NCBI GenBank assembly: GCA_020439995.1
Contig: JAGROY010000065.1
Location: 1-64,000 of the forward strand
Direction: 5' to 3'
Origin: Verrucomicrobiia bacterium
GTDB lineage: Bacteria > Verrucomicrobiota > Verrucomicrobiia > Verrucomicrobiales > DEV007
Length of the DNA stretch: 64,000 nucleotides
A program made the translations under genes and the position numbers. Shown in pieces: positions 4,972 through 47,443 of the stretch. The notes under the pieces were generated by a model. That model was not told the origin of the DNA. It made no database searches and was given only the letters and a program-made list of their open reading frames with translations. Numbering within the stretch: the stretch's first letter is position 1; each line of letters opens with the position of its first letter.

Positions 4972-6885
4972 ATGCTCCTGCGCTTCAGCCTACGTGTGGC
5001 GGTCGCAATCGTGGGCATTTGCCTAATGAGCAGCTGCTGGAAGAGCGAAATCGCTGTAGAAACAGACAAGGAACTGGCCACCCCTGTTATCTCCGCCCCC
5101 GCACCCAGTGGGACTCCGCCGCCACCAGTCGAATCGACCATCACTGAGCGCGACCAGTTGCTGCCCTCCGTGCCGGGAGTGTCACAGAAAGACTTCCAGG
5201 GTCAAATGGCACCCGTCATGGCGAAAATGGATCAGATCAGCCGTGAGTGGAACACGGAAATATTCTCGCTCGCGGTGAACGACAAGCTGGAAGAAATCGC
5301 GTCCTGGATCGAGGATGGTATCATCGACGGAAATGCGCTGGAGTTGATTTCGCTTGAGACCGTCGGTAGCACGCCGCTCCGCTATCAGCCGTTGCAGACG
5401 GTTTTTGAAGACAGTCTCACTCAGATAAACCGATGGGAACCATCCGACACCGATGCCACAGAACTCGTTGTCGGAAGGGAAGCACTTGCCAATCATCTGG
5501 ATGGTTTGATCGCCCCGCTTCGGTCAACCACGGAACGTCACGTGAAGTTCAAAACCTACCGTGTAGAACCCGCGACCGATCGCGTCGCGACCACGGCTCA
5601 GTATCACGCCAGCGGCAAGCAAGGCCGGGGGACGCTTGAGCAGACTGCCACGCTCAAGTTTGAATGGACGGCCGAACGTCAACCGCGCCTTGTCACCTTG
5701 ACAGTGGACAGCTACGAGGAGGTGATTCCCAGTTCGAGCGGCGGCCTGCATTTCGTCGATCGCGGCCCCCAGGCCTTCGCCAGAGAACGATCGTACACCA
5801 GCCAATTCACCGAGGGTGTTGACTTCTGGCGACAGCGGCTGCAGGCCGACTTCGGCATCGACGTCAACGGACTGCAGGGAGTGGCGCTGGGAGATGTGGA
5901 CGGCGACGGACTGGAAGACGTCTATGTTTGCCAGCACGGCGGCCTGCCCAACAAATTGTTCCTGCGCAATGCAGACGGAACCTTGCGCGACATCTCGGCG
6001 GCCTCGGGTACCGACTGGATGGAGCTCACTCGCGCGGCGTTGTTCGTCGATCTAGACAACGATGGCGATCAGGATCTGGCAATGACTCAGGGCTGGTACT
6101 GGGTGCTGATGGAAAACGATGGCAGCGGCAAATTCACCAAGCGAGCCGAAACCCGTGGCAGCGCCTGGTACTACTCGATCGTGGCGGCTGACTACGACAA
6201 TGATGGGAACCTCGACCTCTATATCTGCGGTCGCAACCCCAGCGCCGAACAACGCCAGCTGGAAGGCCTTCTTGGAACACCCATCCCCTTTCACGACGCC
6301 AACAACGGAGGCCCTAACATTCTGCTCAAGAATGAAGGAAGATGGAACTTCTCGGACGTCACCATTAAGTCCGGTATGGACGTGCACAATCGGCGCTACA
6401 GTTATGCGGCTGTGTGGGAAGACTACGACAACGACGGCGATCAGGATCTCTACGTGGCTAACGATTTTGGCCGCAATTGCCTCTACCGCAATGACCGTGG
6501 GAAGTTCAGCGAGATCGCCGCGAAAGCCGGGGTTGAGGACATCTCTGCCGGCATGGGAGTGACATGGGCAGACTTCGATCACGACGGAGACATGGATCTG
6601 CACGTGAGCAATATGTTCTCATCAGCGGGCAACCGCATCGCCTACCAGCGCAATTTCCGAGCTTCCGACGGCGACTCCCGCAGTGCCTATCGGCGCCATG
6701 CGCGGGGCAACAGTCTATTCACCAACAACGGCAAGGGCACGTTTTCCGATGTCAGCACTCAAGCGGGGATCACTCTCGGACGATGGGCATGGGGAGCGCG
6801 GTTCACAGATTTTAACAATGACGGATGGGAGGATCTTTTTGTCGCCAATGGCTTCATTACCACAGAAGACACTGGCGACTTGTGA
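4972..6885 (+). CDS. FG-GAP/VCBS-repeat lipoprotein, N-terminal part up to an in-frame TGA
   Basis: The chosen start gives a lipoprotein signal, with a hydrophobic core followed by LMSSC at about residues 16-20. Residues 300-635 hold at least six calcium-type repeats: DVDGDGLED, DLDNDGDQD, DYDNDGNLD, DYDNDGDQD, DFDHDGDMD and DFNNDGWED. They form the beta-propeller typical of CRTAC1/ASPIC surface proteins. The frame stops at TGA 6883-6885, after residue 637. The frame downstream of that TGA stays open and encodes exactly the ASPIC/UnbV part that should follow this propeller. I therefore read 4972-8985 as one gene of 1337 residues, with residue 638 encoded by TGA. The alternative is a nonsense mutation that split the gene. 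Confidence 0.85.
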   Translation: MLLRFSLRVAVAIVGICLMSSCWKSEIAVETDKELATPVISAPAPSGTPPPPVESTITERDQLLPSVPGVSQKDFQGQMAPVMAKMDQISREWNTEIFSLAVNDKLEEIASWIEDGIIDGNALELISLETVGSTPLRYQPLQTVFEDSLTQINRWEPSDTDATELVVGREALANHLDGLIAPLRSTTERHVKFKTYRVEPATDRVATTAQYHASGKQGRGTLEQTATLKFEWTAERQPRLVTLTVDSYEEVIPSSSGGLHFVDRGPQAFARERSYTSQFTEGVDFWRQRLQADFGIDVNGLQGVALGDVDGDGLEDVYVCQHGGLPNKLFLRNADGTLRDISAASGTDWMELTRAALFVDLDNDGDQDLAMTQGWYWVLMENDGSGKFTKRAETRGSAWYYSIVAADYDNDGNLDLYICGRNPSAEQRQLEGLLGTPIPFHDANNGGPNILLKNEGRWNFSDVTIKSGMDVHNRRYSYAAVWEDYDNDGDQDLYVANDFGRNCLYRNDRGKFSEIAAKAGVEDISAGMGVTWADFDHDGDMDLHVSNMFSSAGNRIAYQRNFRASDGDSRSAYRRHARGNSLFTNNGKGTFSDVSTQAGITLGRWAWGARFTDFNNDGWEDLFVANGFITTEDTGDL

Positions 6886-6926
6886 AGTTTCTACTGGCGC
6901 CAGGTCGTGGCGCAATCACCTGAAAC
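6883..6926 (+). promoter_or_regulatory. In-frame TGA followed by a bacterial SECIS-like hairpin
   Basis: TGA lies at 6883-6885. Seventeen bases later comes an apical loop, GGUCG (6903-6907), closed by a perfect 6-bp stem, GCGCCA (6897-6902) with UGGCGC (6908-6913). A lower stem, GUUUC (6887-6891) with GAAAC (6922-6926), adds 5 bp around an internal loop. From general knowledge, bacterial SECIS elements sit directly behind the UGA, with an apical loop about 16-37 bases away and G in its first positions. The E. coli fdhF element carries AGGUC in its loop at the same distance, and AGGUC is present here too. Translation by SelB and Sec-tRNA is inferred; no sel gene is in the window. Confidence 0.6.
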
Positions 6927-8985
6927 CGCAACACCAGAAGCGAACGAACTGGAGCGCTACCTGCTGAACTGGTCAGCCCTGGGACAGATGATCGATGAAG
7001 GCCGATCCTTCAGTGGCTACGAGCGAAACTGTGCATTCCTGAATGTTGATGGAAAGAGCTTCGCAACGGTATCCGCTTCCAGCGGGCTCGACCTCATGGA
7101 CGACGCGCGCGCAGTTGCTACTTGCGATTGGAACTTTGACGGCAAGCTGGATTTCTGGGTCACCAACCGAACAGCGCCGAAGGTGCGGCTGCTGATGAAT
7201 GAATCGGCACCTGCTCCCGAGACGTCTCACTTTGTTGCGCTGCGCCTCAAGGGGGGAAAAAATATCAATCGCGACGCTATCGGTGCCCGCATTGAAATCT
7301 ACCCGGACACCAGTCGCAAACATTACATCAGAACGCTGCACGCAGGTGACGGATTCATAGCGCAGTCAAGCAGGTGGCTGCACTTTGGCCTCGGATCACT
7401 GGAGTCGATCGATCGGGTAATCGTTCGCTGGCCGGGGGCATCAGCCGAGCCCTTCACCGGAGTCACTCCCGGCGGCTTTTTTGAACTTGAGCAGGGCACT
7501 GGCACTGCGAAGTCCTGGGAACCGCCAGCGTTTGCCCTTCCCGCAGCCAATCCTGCCACCGCGTCTGATTCCCTGGCATCTAGGCCAATCCGCACTTGGC
7601 TTATCGGTCGTGTCCCCTTCCCCAGAGCCGACTACAATGCATGGGATGGTGCCCGCAAACCCTTGCATTCTCTGCGTGGAAAACCGCTCGCGATCAACTT
7701 GTGGTCCACTACCTGTAACCCCTGCCTGGCAGAGCTGCAGGAGTGGAAAGAATCCGCATCCCGCTTCGACGAGGCAGGGGTGCAAGTGCTGACGCTTACC
7801 GTGGATGGACTGGATCCAAGCAATGCAGACGGCTCCGCAGCTGCCGAAAAACTGGCCACCGAACTCCAGCTCCCGTTCCTCGCGGGCAATGCCACCGCCA
7901 AGCTGGTGGAAGCAATGGAAATCGTGCACCGTACCTTTGTCGCACTCAAGAAACCGCTGCCAGTGCCCACCACATTCCTGCTGGACCAACATGGCCGCGT
8001 GGCCGCCATCTACCAGGGTCGCACTGCTGCTGACACGTTGCTACGCGATGTGGCATTGTTAGAACAACCAGTAAAAGTTCAGCGGGACCAGGCGGTGCCA
8101 TTCGCCGGCAGTTGGGCATCGATCCCCTATGAAGCCGACCCGCTGCGGGTAGCACTGAGCTATTCGGCTGCAGGCAAACCTGAGCTGGCCATCGGATACC
8201 TCAAAGATACTCTGGAGGAACCAGAGGTGACACTTGCGGGCGTGCTTTCCGAAGCAGGCCTGAAGAAATTCAAGATCGATGGCCAGGCCATGGTCGGCCA
8301 GATGCACCTCGATGCCGGCGATCCCAAAAGTGCTGCAAGTGCCTACGCAGAGCTACTCACTCTTGCCCCGGAAGCAACAGCAAGTCACCGGGCCATCGGT
8401 GAGAATTTGCTCCAGCGAAACCTCGCCGAACCAGCACTCGCTCACTTGAACCTGGTGCTCAAGTCGACTCCGAACGACGCCAGTCTCCTTTTCAACATCG
8501 CCCTGGCAGAGACCGCAACCAATCAACCGGAAGCCGCGATCAAACACTTCAAGGCAGCCGTTGCACTTGCTCCCGATGACCTGGCCACCCACTTCCAGCT
8601 GGGGAACGCACTGCTGCAACAGAAGGATGTGGAAGGAGCAATCGTCCACTATCGCGAAGCCCTGCGCATCGAGCCCAACTGGCCACTCGCAGCACATCAA
8701 CTTGCATGGCTCCTCGCCACACAGCCGAACGATGCACTGCGCAACGGAGAAGAAGCGCTCGCCCTCGCCGAAGCCGTTTGCCAGCGGGATGGCGGCGGCA
8801 ACCCTGTAACACTGCACACCTGGTCCGCAGCACTCGCCGAGCTGGGTCGCTTCCCGGAGGCACTGCAGATCAGCACCCGCGCCGCCCAGATCGCGGAAGA
8901 CGAACCTCGCTTCGCCAAGTTCCTGGAAAAGATCAATGAAGCACGGGCCCTTTACCGGAAACGCCGCCCCATCCGGTCACGTTAA
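6907..8985 (+). CDS. ASPIC/UnbV, thioredoxin-like and TPR part of the same protein
   Basis: This reading frame is the direct continuation of the 4972 gene past the TGA; the GTG at 6907 is only the first possible restart codon and lacks a ribosome binding site. Counted from that GTG, residues 1-110 finish the repeat region, 120-196 are an ASPIC/UnbV domain, and 225-380 are a thioredoxin-like domain with the CxxC pair C270-N-P-C273. Four or more TPR repeats follow at about 440-650. Proteins with this order are surface or periplasmic in this group of bacteria, with function unproven. If it were translated alone it would lack a signal peptide and so could not reach the envelope, which argues for one read-through product. 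Confidence 0.85.
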   Translation: MAQSPETATPEANELERYLLNWSALGQMIDEGRSFSGYERNCAFLNVDGKSFATVSASSGLDLMDDARAVATCDWNFDGKLDFWVTNRTAPKVRLLMNESAPAPETSHFVALRLKGGKNINRDAIGARIEIYPDTSRKHYIRTLHAGDGFIAQSSRWLHFGLGSLESIDRVIVRWPGASAEPFTGVTPGGFFELEQGTGTAKSWEPPAFALPAANPATASDSLASRPIRTWLIGRVPFPRADYNAWDGARKPLHSLRGKPLAINLWSTTCNPCLAELQEWKESASRFDEAGVQVLTLTVDGLDPSNADGSAAAEKLATELQLPFLAGNATAKLVEAMEIVHRTFVALKKPLPVPTTFLLDQHGRVAAIYQGRTAADTLLRDVALLEQPVKVQRDQAVPFAGSWASIPYEADPLRVALSYSAAGKPELAIGYLKDTLEEPEVTLAGVLSEAGLKKFKIDGQAMVGQMHLDAGDPKSAASAYAELLTLAPEATASHRAIGENLLQRNLAEPALAHLNLVLKSTPNDASLLFNIALAETATNQPEAAIKHFKAAVALAPDDLATHFQLGNALLQQKDVEGAIVHYREALRIEPNWPLAAHQLAWLLATQPNDALRNGEEALALAEAVCQRDGGGNPVTLHTWSAALAELGRFPEALQISTRAAQIAEDEPRFAKFLEKINEARALYRKRRPIRSR

Positions 8986-10538: not shown

Positions 10539-12188
10539 GTGAGCTCACAAACGATCACAGCATCCACACTGGATCCGGGACAAAGCAGCAACCAAGCAGC
10601 AGCGCAGCTTGGCAGGGAGTGGCGTTTGAAAAACTGGGGCGCGCTTTTGTTTATCGCTGGACTTTGGACGGTGGTGTTGATGCATCTTGCGGTGGATTGG
10701 CGATTCAACCCTGAGTATCGATTCGGCTGGTTCGCTCCCGTCATGATGGCCCTGGTTCTGGCCTCACGTCTGGGCAAAGGGCGACCGCGCCTGACAGCCA
10801 ACCGCGCCCGGATGCCCCGTACCGTGTTCTGGTTTTTCGTTACGGCCCTGGCTGCCTGGCCATTGACTCGCATGGTAGGAATCGCCAACCCCGACTGGCA
10901 CTTGTTTTCCTGGATCACCGTCATCTCGGGACTGATCCTGACGCTGGCCACGCTGCACAGTATGGGTGGGACAAAGATGATGCGCCACTACGGCATCCCG
11001 TTTCTGATGGTAGCGGCCGTTGTGCCGTGGCCGTTTTTCCTGGAGCTGCACTTGATCTCCACGTTGAAAAGCATCAACGCGATGATCGTCACCGAAGTCT
11101 TGCAGCTCAGTGGCATTGCAGCAGTACGTGAGACCGGAGGCATCATCACCATGCCCAATGCTGTGCTGGGAATCGAAGAAGGTTGCACAGGGATTCGTTC
11201 ACTCCACCTGTGCCTAGCAGTCGCGTTGTTCTGGGGCGAGTGGTTCCGACTGCCGCTCAAAGGACGCGCCTCATTAGTAGCGTTTGCATTCTTGGTCGCC
11301 ATTCTTGTGAACGTCGTCCGCACTGTATCGCTGGCGGTCATCGCACACCAGTCTGGCCCCGAAGTGCTCGATCAGTGGCACGATCTCGCAGGCATTTTTG
11401 CCCAGGCCATTGTTGTGGGGATCTGCTGGATGCTCACCGGATGGCTCATCGCAAGGCAGCAGCGGTGGTCGCGAAACCGCTTTCTCAAATCGAGCAATTC
11501 AGAAAGCCGTGAGGCACCCATGCAAGTCGCCTCGGTTCGCCTGAAGGGGATCGTATTCTGTCTCGCCACGGTGTGGATTCTTGGCTGCGAAACGGGCGCA
11601 CGTTTCTGGTTTAATCGACCAACCGGAGATCAGCGTGCATCACAGCCGTGGCGGTGGTCGATTCCTCCATCGATTGACGGGCTGCGGCCGATGCGACTAC
11701 CGCCCCAGTGGCGAGCCCTGCTGGCAGCCGACGGGACATTTGCCGGAACTTGGATCGACAAAAGTAAAAATCGCATTCGCTATCTTTACAGCTTCCACTG
11801 GCAGGAAGGGCGGCCTGCAGCTCTGTTTGCCACACACCATCGTCCGGAAGACTGTCTGCCCGGATCAGGCTTCGAACTGGTTGGTTCGCCCGAACGGGTT
11901 GCCTTTCCGACAAAAAATGGTGCACGCCCGTTTGAACTCAACCGCTATTCGTTTCGATCGTCTGATGGTGTCCCATTAACCGTTTTCCACGGTACTTATG
12001 CCGATGACAAATTCACTGAGAGTCAATCCGGAGGACTGACGCGCCAGCGACGATTCAACCGTGCGATTCACGGCGAAGGCTTCCCTGACACGCGCTTGCT
12101 TGAAATCATCTTCTGGGACACTGATACCAGCGCAGCACAGGCGGAAATGGAGCAGCAGATCAGCTCGATCGTAGTCCTGAGCTCGTAG
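10539..12188 (+). CDS. Exosortase with C-terminal EpsI-like domain
   Basis: The 549-residue protein has an N-terminal multi-pass exosortase domain (about residues 30-310) with the catalytic set of this family: C216 in EEGCTGIR, R261 in VNVVRTVS and H281 in QWHDLAG. After a basic linker, residues 330-549 form an EpsI/DUF3485-type extracytoplasmic domain. Exosortases cleave PEP-CTERM-type sorting tails, often in cells that make exopolysaccharide. The start is a GTG and lacks an obvious binding site. No protein in this window has a PEP-CTERM tail. The gene ends 14 bases from the end of the convergent Mrp operon. Confidence 0.85.
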   Translation: MSSQTITASTLDPGQSSNQAAAQLGREWRLKNWGALLFIAGLWTVVLMHLAVDWRFNPEYRFGWFAPVMMALVLASRLGKGRPRLTANRARMPRTVFWFFVTALAAWPLTRMVGIANPDWHLFSWITVISGLILTLATLHSMGGTKMMRHYGIPFLMVAAVVPWPFFLELHLISTLKSINAMIVTEVLQLSGIAAVRETGGIITMPNAVLGIEEGCTGIRSLHLCLAVALFWGEWFRLPLKGRASLVAFAFLVAILVNVVRTVSLAVIAHQSGPEVLDQWHDLAGIFAQAIVVGICWMLTGWLIARQQRWSRNRFLKSSNSESREAPMQVASVRLKGIVFCLATVWILGCETGARFWFNRPTGDQRASQPWRWSIPPSIDGLRPMRLPPQWRALLAADGTFAGTWIDKSKNRIRYLYSFHWQEGRPAALFATHHRPEDCLPGSGFELVGSPERVAFPTKNGARPFELNRYSFRSSDGVPLTVFHGTYADDKFTESQSGGLTRQRRFNRAIHGEGFPDTRLLEIIFWDTDTSAAQAEMEQQISSIVVLSS

Positions 12189-46411: not shown

Positions 46412-47443
46412 ATGAAACTCTGCCACCGCGAGGATAATCCCTCCCTTGATGCGAGCTACGCTGTGCTCAGTTGTGCCGCGGAGGAACCGCACCGTCCATT
46501 CGAACGTGTTGCTTTGCTTGCTGCTGCCATCACGGTTATGCTGGCCTTCGTAAACTGGCAATTGCCTAATCAGGCATTTCTCGTAACCCTGGCCCTCGCC
46601 GTTGGTATCGCCTCTACTCTGGGTTCACGACTATTCCGTAGGCAGATGCTCATCGTTAGAGCCCACGATTTCATTCTACTAGATTGCAAATCATATCAAA
46701 GAACAGCTTGGGATGCCATTTCTTCGATCAAGTCGGTCGGACTTGGAATGGAATTGCAAATGAAAGACGGGGAACGTCGCACCATAGAGCTGGACTTCCT
46801 CCAGAGCCACCAATACTTCACTACTGTTTCAAGCGTGATCCGCTTCCATGAAGCATTCACGGTATTGGGGCCGCTGAAGTATCCTGCGGCGACTGCCGGA
46901 TTCTCCCTCTCGACCGCCAACCTCAACCTTCGCCTTGTCGACATTTCCGATCGAGATCAATTTGTCTCCCTGAAATCATCGTCAGTTCTTGCAGCATTCC
47001 AGCTGAACCCCGTCATTTCCCGGGAACTCGCATTGGATGCCTTTGATCAACGGCTTGAATCCATGCACTCAAATTGTGGAACGTGGGAGTTTGCGATCGA
47101 AAAGGACGGCCAGCGGGTGGGTCAAACGGCAATCGCTTTGACTGACTATATCCTTCGCCACGCGACGATGGGCATTGAGCTTCAGCCATCTTTTTGGAAT
47201 CAGGGGATCGGAACTGAGGCGCTGAGTGCATTGATCGAGTTCGCCCGGCAATACACGAATTTCACGAAAATTGAGGCAGCCTGTTTTTCTGAGAATATGG
47301 CATGCAACAAAGCACTGGTGAAAGCTGGCATGCTCCCCACAGGAACGACCGAGGAATTCTGGATAAAAAACGGTTCGTGGATCGCAGGCAATCACTTTGC
47401 CCTGTCTCTGGCTCCAGATGACCTGACAAAATCAGTGGAATGA
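46412..47443 (+). CDS. Membrane protein with C-terminal GNAT domain
   Basis: The 343-residue protein (first ATG at 46412; a TTG at 46397 overlaps the sulfatase stop) has two hydrophobic helices at about residues 35-75. A PH-like beta segment follows (about 80-155), then a RimJ/RimL-type GNAT domain (about 175-335), with MGIELQPSFWNQGIGTEALS as its acetyl-CoA loop. A membrane-anchored acetyltransferase of this layout is not one I recognise. It is immediately downstream of the sulfatase and may be co-transcribed. Confidence 0.75.
   Translation: MKLCHREDNPSLDASYAVLSCAAEEPHRPFERVALLAAAITVMLAFVNWQLPNQAFLVTLALAVGIASTLGSRLFRRQMLIVRAHDFILLDCKSYQRTAWDAISSIKSVGLGMELQMKDGERRTIELDFLQSHQYFTTVSSVIRFHEAFTVLGPLKYPAATAGFSLSTANLNLRLVDISDRDQFVSLKSSSVLAAFQLNPVISRELALDAFDQRLESMHSNCGTWEFAIEKDGQRVGQTAIALTDYILRHATMGIELQPSFWNQGIGTEALSALIEFARQYTNFTKIEAACFSENMACNKALVKAGMLPTGTTEEFWIKNGSWIAGNHFALSLAPDDLTKSVE

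Follow-up and report, generated by a model that had tools for sequence, protein, structure and literature searches.

In E. coli fdhF (formate dehydrogenase H), as at the locus described here, an in-frame UGA is followed by an adjacent 3' hairpin with GGUC in its apical loop. Bacterial selenoproteins have in common the SelA/SelB/SelD/tRNA-Sec machinery and an exchange of selenocysteine (Sec) with Cys among homologues, both of which are also found here. Two protein groups complete the set of closest described systems: CRTAC1/ASPIC-UnbV proteins (9etn), with which the present protein shares an FG-GAP propeller and an UnbV_ASPIC domain, each over the curated cut-off, and the TlpA/ResA thiol-disulfide oxidoreductases, including UGC-type TlpA, with which it shares the fold of the C-terminal domain and a WxxxCxPC motif.

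The gene under study runs from 4972 to 8985 on the forward strand of a 64-kb window (the whole stretch of DNA that was analysed, 64,000 nucleotides) and is complete, encoding 1337 residues when one TGA is read through. This TGA, at 6883-6885 on the same strand, is codon 638 and the sole internal stop of the frame in the readthrough translation. It is flanked by 753 open codons upstream and 699 downstream, the strongest join at any stop in the window. The runner-up, of 370 and 1292 codons, coincides with the ends of two adjacent listed ORFs, and other long TGA joins (at 47441, 38123 and 22260) were rejected, as they resemble neighbouring genes sharing one frame. The initial annotation had placed the TGA inside a single frame and had proposed selenocysteine at residue 638: homologous coding sequence on both sides bears out the former, and the homologue column, a hairpin and the sel machinery support the latter. 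Judged on sequence comparison, the TGA is very probably best read as selenocysteine, and we hold with high confidence that the product would be a selenoprotein with the anatomy described below, the redox cycle being left out of that claim. The N-terminus carries a lipoprotein-like signal, LMSSC, as judged by eye, which agrees, like the length, with the earlier description of a 1337-residue lipoprotein; by a simple pattern, a lipobox follows a hydrophobic stretch in 41 of the 88 homologues with a complete 5' end.

Of 75 genomes from the same GTDB family, 72 contain a match to a 367-residue query. Among the matches listed, about 150 contain exactly one TGA, one of these also with a TAA, and in the alignment the TGAs of the homologues fall in one single column. 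Over the distinct homologues that span 290 residues or more, this column holds TGA in 138, Cys in 6, Asp in 3 and another state in 4, the latter being CRTAC1-like proteins in which the segment is missing or poorly aligned; the position is hence not freely variable. The six Cys homologues present the motif D[YH]C[ST]x[FY]W and are continuous across the Sec site. Three of them are paralogues within the source genome (G000), which itself holds 12 TGA forms beside these 3 Cys forms. In a tree built by a quick method, with some long branches, the Cys homologues are distant relatives set apart by such branches; the column states form four groups and need three changes, which is the minimum. The Asp residues belong to distant homologues (L089, L090 and L079; NYDEIFW, DFDLYFW).

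Around the site, the TGA forms share the nearly invariant motif D-L-U-S-[FV]-[FY]-W-R-x-V. A scan of GTDB contigs with this motif returned at least 108 stretches which, among the matches listed, come mainly from Verrucomicrobiales (including Roseibacillus), Planctomycetota and Acidobacteriota, together with single records labelled Myxococcaceae and Proteobacteria. One contig with a Sec member (L217) is labelled Akkermansia muciniphila isolate AH-2..., a label that may be wrong. Several genomes of this Verrucomicrobiales family hold roughly 9-15 Sec paralogues. There is also a second, distant Sec subfamily (L064-L066, at G000:C369, C96 and C12, and L042, at G027:C198) with the motif DLUSxLWRxVV, of which L042 has the variant DGUTCLWRAVV. 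An error of sequencing or assembly, or a pseudogene, is exceedingly improbable as the source of the TGA: the window does come from a MAG-like assembly (8.83 Mb, 490 contigs, 91.7% complete), but 138 distinct homologues have the TGA at this one column, its recurrence in independently assembled MAGs, single-cell genomes and the complete chromosome OX638355.1 excludes sequencing error in practice, and purifying constraint acts on both sides of the TGA and at synonymous sites.

Downstream of the TGA lies a bSECIS hairpin (6897-6913, forward strand), GCGCCA-GGTCG-TGGCGC, with a stem of 6 bp formed by 6897-6902 and 6908-6913 and a loop, GGTCG, at 6903-6907. The perfect 6-bp hairpin of the initial annotation is therefore present as described; its distance from the TGA had been given as 17 bases, while the stem starts 12 nt 3' of the TGA and the 17th base is the A of AGGTC. 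The same annotation had equated the AGGUC distance with that of E. coli fdhF. Counting from the T of the TGA, with fdhF as control, the match is near and not exact, at base 20 here and base 21 there. It had further drawn a lower 5-bp GUUUC/GAAAC stem, which does pair in this sequence but is kept in just 7 of 132 homologues; we rejected it as a chance pairing, and the SECIS is therefore the short hairpin.

This short hairpin is well conserved. The complete 6-bp stem is found in 114 of the 132 sequences and at least 5 bp in 130, the six pairs forming in 123, 129, 132, 128, 128 and 131 of them (93-100%). Pair 18:28 occurs as GU, AU, GC and CG and has the top corrected mutual information among all pairs of 48 columns, so that the top covarying pair of the region falls within the hairpin; pair 16:30 changes from CG to AU in three sequences. 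In the distant subfamily members L064-L066 the loop GGUC is kept at the same spacing from the UGA, with the hairpin shifted by one base and the stems replaced (GCGCGC/GUGCGC, GCGUAC/GUACGC and GCGCAC/GUGCGC). The six Cys homologues are without the hairpin. A degenerate SECIS pattern, allowing up to three mismatches, was found in 25 of 75 family genomes, against 0 of 75 for the reversed control. The 6-bp hairpin is real, but its folding energy alone is uninformative, unremarkable at z = -1.06, and the proof is comparative, not energetic. RNAalifold with the 132 sequences returned a poor partial structure only and did not recover the hairpin, probably because a near-invariant sequence gives little covariation, and the pairs were therefore counted directly. 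An Rfam scan of the window gave no match.

Selection at the RNA level was assessed in 132 non-redundant TGA forms by comparing codon choice, given the amino acid, with each gene's own usage. A strongly constrained stretch, in which the codons vary much less than that usage, extends from codon -1 to codon +9 relative to the TGA (6880-6912, forward strand); at codons -1, +1 and +5 to +9, z lies between -17 and -58: -29 for Leu-1, -51 for Ser+1, -17 for Arg+5, -24 for both Gln+6 and Val+7, -30 for Val+8 and -58 for Ser/Pro/Ala+9. Beyond about +12, synonymous choice is back to normal, with z near 0. Constraint is also seen 5' of the hairpin (6880-6888), where Leu-1 is TTG in 113 of 132 sequences and Ser+1 is AGY in all 131 sequences with Ser (UUG-UGA-AGY). 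This upstream constraint may reflect a contact with the ribosome or SelB, or a leaky-stop context.

The components needed to decode such a codon are encoded in the source genome, where all four genes named by the initial annotation (selA, selB, selC and selD) score over their curated cut-offs. The tRNA-Sec reaches 62.8 bits against a gathering score of 47, and ARAGORN calls it a tRNA-SeC with anticodon tca (UCA); selB reaches 283.5 bits (curated cut-off 242), selA 483.1 bits (268) and selD 263.4 bits (125). The secondary matches of the genome to RF01852 and selB all stay under cut-off and presumably represent serine tRNAs and other translation GTPases. The open frame around the selD match (G000:C192:27856-28779, L114) counts 757 codons, over double what the selD model spans, and may represent a fusion. 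Across the family, selB is over cut-off in each of the 12 pattern-bearing genomes with a completeness of 86% or more, and the 9 pattern-bearing genomes without selB are each at most 85% complete. The tRNA-Sec is over cut-off in 9 of 10 further gene-carrying genomes, the tenth being a MAG. The SECIS pattern is absent from 50 of the 75 family genomes, many of them selB-positive, and further selenoproteins therefore probably use the machinery in these pattern-free selB genomes. In genus g2 (G001-G034), many genomes have selB over cut-off and (nearly) none of these Sec genes.

Decoding of the UGA without selenium, whether as tryptophan or as some other amino acid, and whether throughout the genome or via a suppressor, would leave the readthrough frame just as open, whichever residue is inserted. 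We consider it extremely unlikely, since many homologous genes terminate in UGA, the alternative residue among homologues is Cys and not Trp, and a conserved hairpin, tRNA-Sec(UCA) and selB are all present.

We then turn to the protein itself, taking the UGA as selenocysteine. An FG-GAP repeat β-propeller occupies approximately 5737-7251 (Pfam FG-GAP_3, 142.7 bits, cut-off 26.9), followed by an UnbV_ASPIC domain at 7276-7470 (PF07593, 51.9 bits, cut-off 23.4), a TlpA/ResA-like thioredoxin domain at 7618-8007 (AhpC-TSA, 45.9 bits, cut-off 26, with Redoxin also over cut-off) and C-terminal TPR repeats at 8305-8907 (Pfam TPR models over cut-off), all on the forward strand. Inside the thioredoxin domain lies a CNPC motif (residues 915-918; 7714-7725, forward strand); the AhpC-TSA score and the fold match to TlpA/ResA bear out the CxxC thioredoxin-like domain that had been read from the translation. 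Of 63 diverse Sec members, every one has FG-GAP and ASPIC, and 59 have AhpC-TSA. Sec638 is conserved in 63/63 and the pair C915 and C918 (CxPC) in 62/63, while further conserved cysteines are C320 (53 members), C687 (49) and C419 (48).

An AlphaFold model of residues 248-1038 (pLDDT 92.5, pTM 0.93) places Sec as the second residue of a helix, 390-401 in the numbering of the modelled piece, which is the first of two helices between propeller strands; the TGA at 6883-6885 thus falls in a helical insert of the propeller. The best solved structural match is murine CRTAC1 (9etn, E 1.1e-26, TM 0.73 by target and 0.52 by query, 15% identity). This anatomy bears on a third alternative, in which the UGA is a real stop that ends a 637-residue propeller piece, and a separately started protein supplies the propeller end, ASPIC, thioredoxin and TPR parts. 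A GTG at 6907 offers a formal possibility of restart, but such a break would split a propeller that the model shows, with high confidence, as a single unit, the Cys homologues are uninterrupted at the site, and directly on either side of the UGA the protein sequence DLUSFYWRQVV is almost invariant. Two separate proteins are accordingly a very unlikely product, if marginally less so than the two alternatives considered above.

Mechanistically, SelB, tRNA-Sec(UCA) and the hairpin just 3' of the UGA would insert selenocysteine at residue 638. The comparative evidence for insertion by this standard bacterial route is very strong, and we regard it as close to certain. The product would be an exported, lipoprotein-like selenoprotein, in which a CRTAC1-like FG-GAP/ASPIC propeller carries between its blades an inserted helix with Sec at the N-terminus; the site of action of the protein would lie outside the cytoplasm. 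Sec, at the start of the helix, would act as the reactive selenolate, and the CxxC domain of the same chain would supply or accept electrons. The protein may be an oxidoreductase of the periplasm or cell surface with Sec as its nucleophile, in which the same-chain CxxC domain reduces or resolves an Se-S or Se-OH intermediate, a proposal to which we give slightly less than an even chance; the main argument for this redox reading is that the CxxC domain is conserved together with the Sec site. The high number of paralogues hints that their propellers recognise differing partners or substrates.

The main rival to the redox reading is a non-thiol role for the inserted Sec, for example the binding of a metal, haem or iron-sulphur partner at the cell surface. 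What makes it so is the lack of a CxxU or UxxC motif around Sec638, together with the Asp, which could also ligate a metal, that occupies the site in some distant homologues; in addition, the fold that carries Sec is a propeller, not a thioredoxin. Against it, a fused thioredoxin-like domain with CxxC is conserved in nearly all Sec members, and Sec sits at a helix N-terminus, a usual place for a redox-active Cys or Sec. Overall we find such a role unlikely, though still a serious competitor to the oxidoreductase.

With regard to the genomic context, 130 loci revealed no fixed operon. The commonest neighbours are large exported proteins (28 of 130 loci, a raw count from single-linkage clustering of repetitive proteins), so that any association with them is tentative. 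Such proteins, e.g. at L129, L223, L181 and L202, sometimes lie less than 100 bases away, and several have PEP-CTERM-like ends. In the window, an exosortase (EpsH) gene with DUF3485 lies at 10539-12188, about 1.5 kb past the Sec gene. A broader speculation, which we rate as improbable, is that of a large, horizontally spread class of β-propeller selenoenzymes, in which the propeller-insert Sec and the same-chain thioredoxin would act on exported cell-surface proteins such as the neighbouring PEP-CTERM/LamG-type ones. If true, free-living Verrucomicrobiota and Planctomycetota would possess a selenium-dependent surface redox system.

Genes for UGA-containing selenoproteins are often split or mis-called by annotation, and a whole multi-gene family, spread over several phyla, appears to have been overlooked here. 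The conserved motif and the SECIS together give annotators an exact pattern with which to correct many genes. The position of Sec in a β-propeller, beside the protein's own thioredoxin domain, predicts a new type of selenoenzyme. The family also hints that exported proteins account for some of the selenium that these Verrucomicrobiota and Planctomycetota require. The presence of Sec and Cys paralogues in one genome makes a direct test of selenium's contribution possible.

The initial annotation knew of no described selenoprotein in the FG-GAP/ASPIC family, and we found none either. The table of a 2026 review, with 119 families and subfamilies of prokaryotic selenoproteins, has no FG-GAP, ASPIC or CRTAC1 entry (PMC13188914), no selenoprotein model of NCBIfam 20 reaches its cut-off on the 1337-residue protein, and full-text literature searches returned nothing relevant on selenoproteins with CRTAC1, FG-GAP, UnbV or Verrucomicrobi. 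The main text of a paper on Planctomycetes selenoproteins leaves ASPIC unmentioned (PMC4807772). The novelty of the family holds against these lists, with one earlier entry, the hypothetical protein GOS_A with 2 TGA sequences (2008; PMC2398784), known by name and counts only. What is already known is the kind, a bacterial selenoprotein; the new elements are the class of the host protein, its fusion to a thioredoxin and how many paralogues there are.

Set against the described systems, the locus departs from each in a defined way. Membership in NCBIfam NF041054 (WAxxUGC) was rejected, as the protein scores 33.3 bits against a cut-off of 300, over the TPR part only, and its CNPC is without Sec; likewise, a Sec inside the thioredoxin motif, as in the WAxxUGC type, was discarded, the motif here being CNPC. 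In contrast to UGC-type TlpA/NF041054, Sec lies here in the propeller, about 280 residues before the thioredoxin motif. Relative to CRTAC1 (9etn), the propeller contains a helical insert with Sec and is followed by a thioredoxin-like domain and TPRs. E. coli fdhF, finally, encodes an unrelated protein, the Sec propeller protein being no Mo/W enzyme; at the RNA level, AGGUC lies here one base closer to the UGA than in fdhF, and the hairpin has no conserved lower stem.
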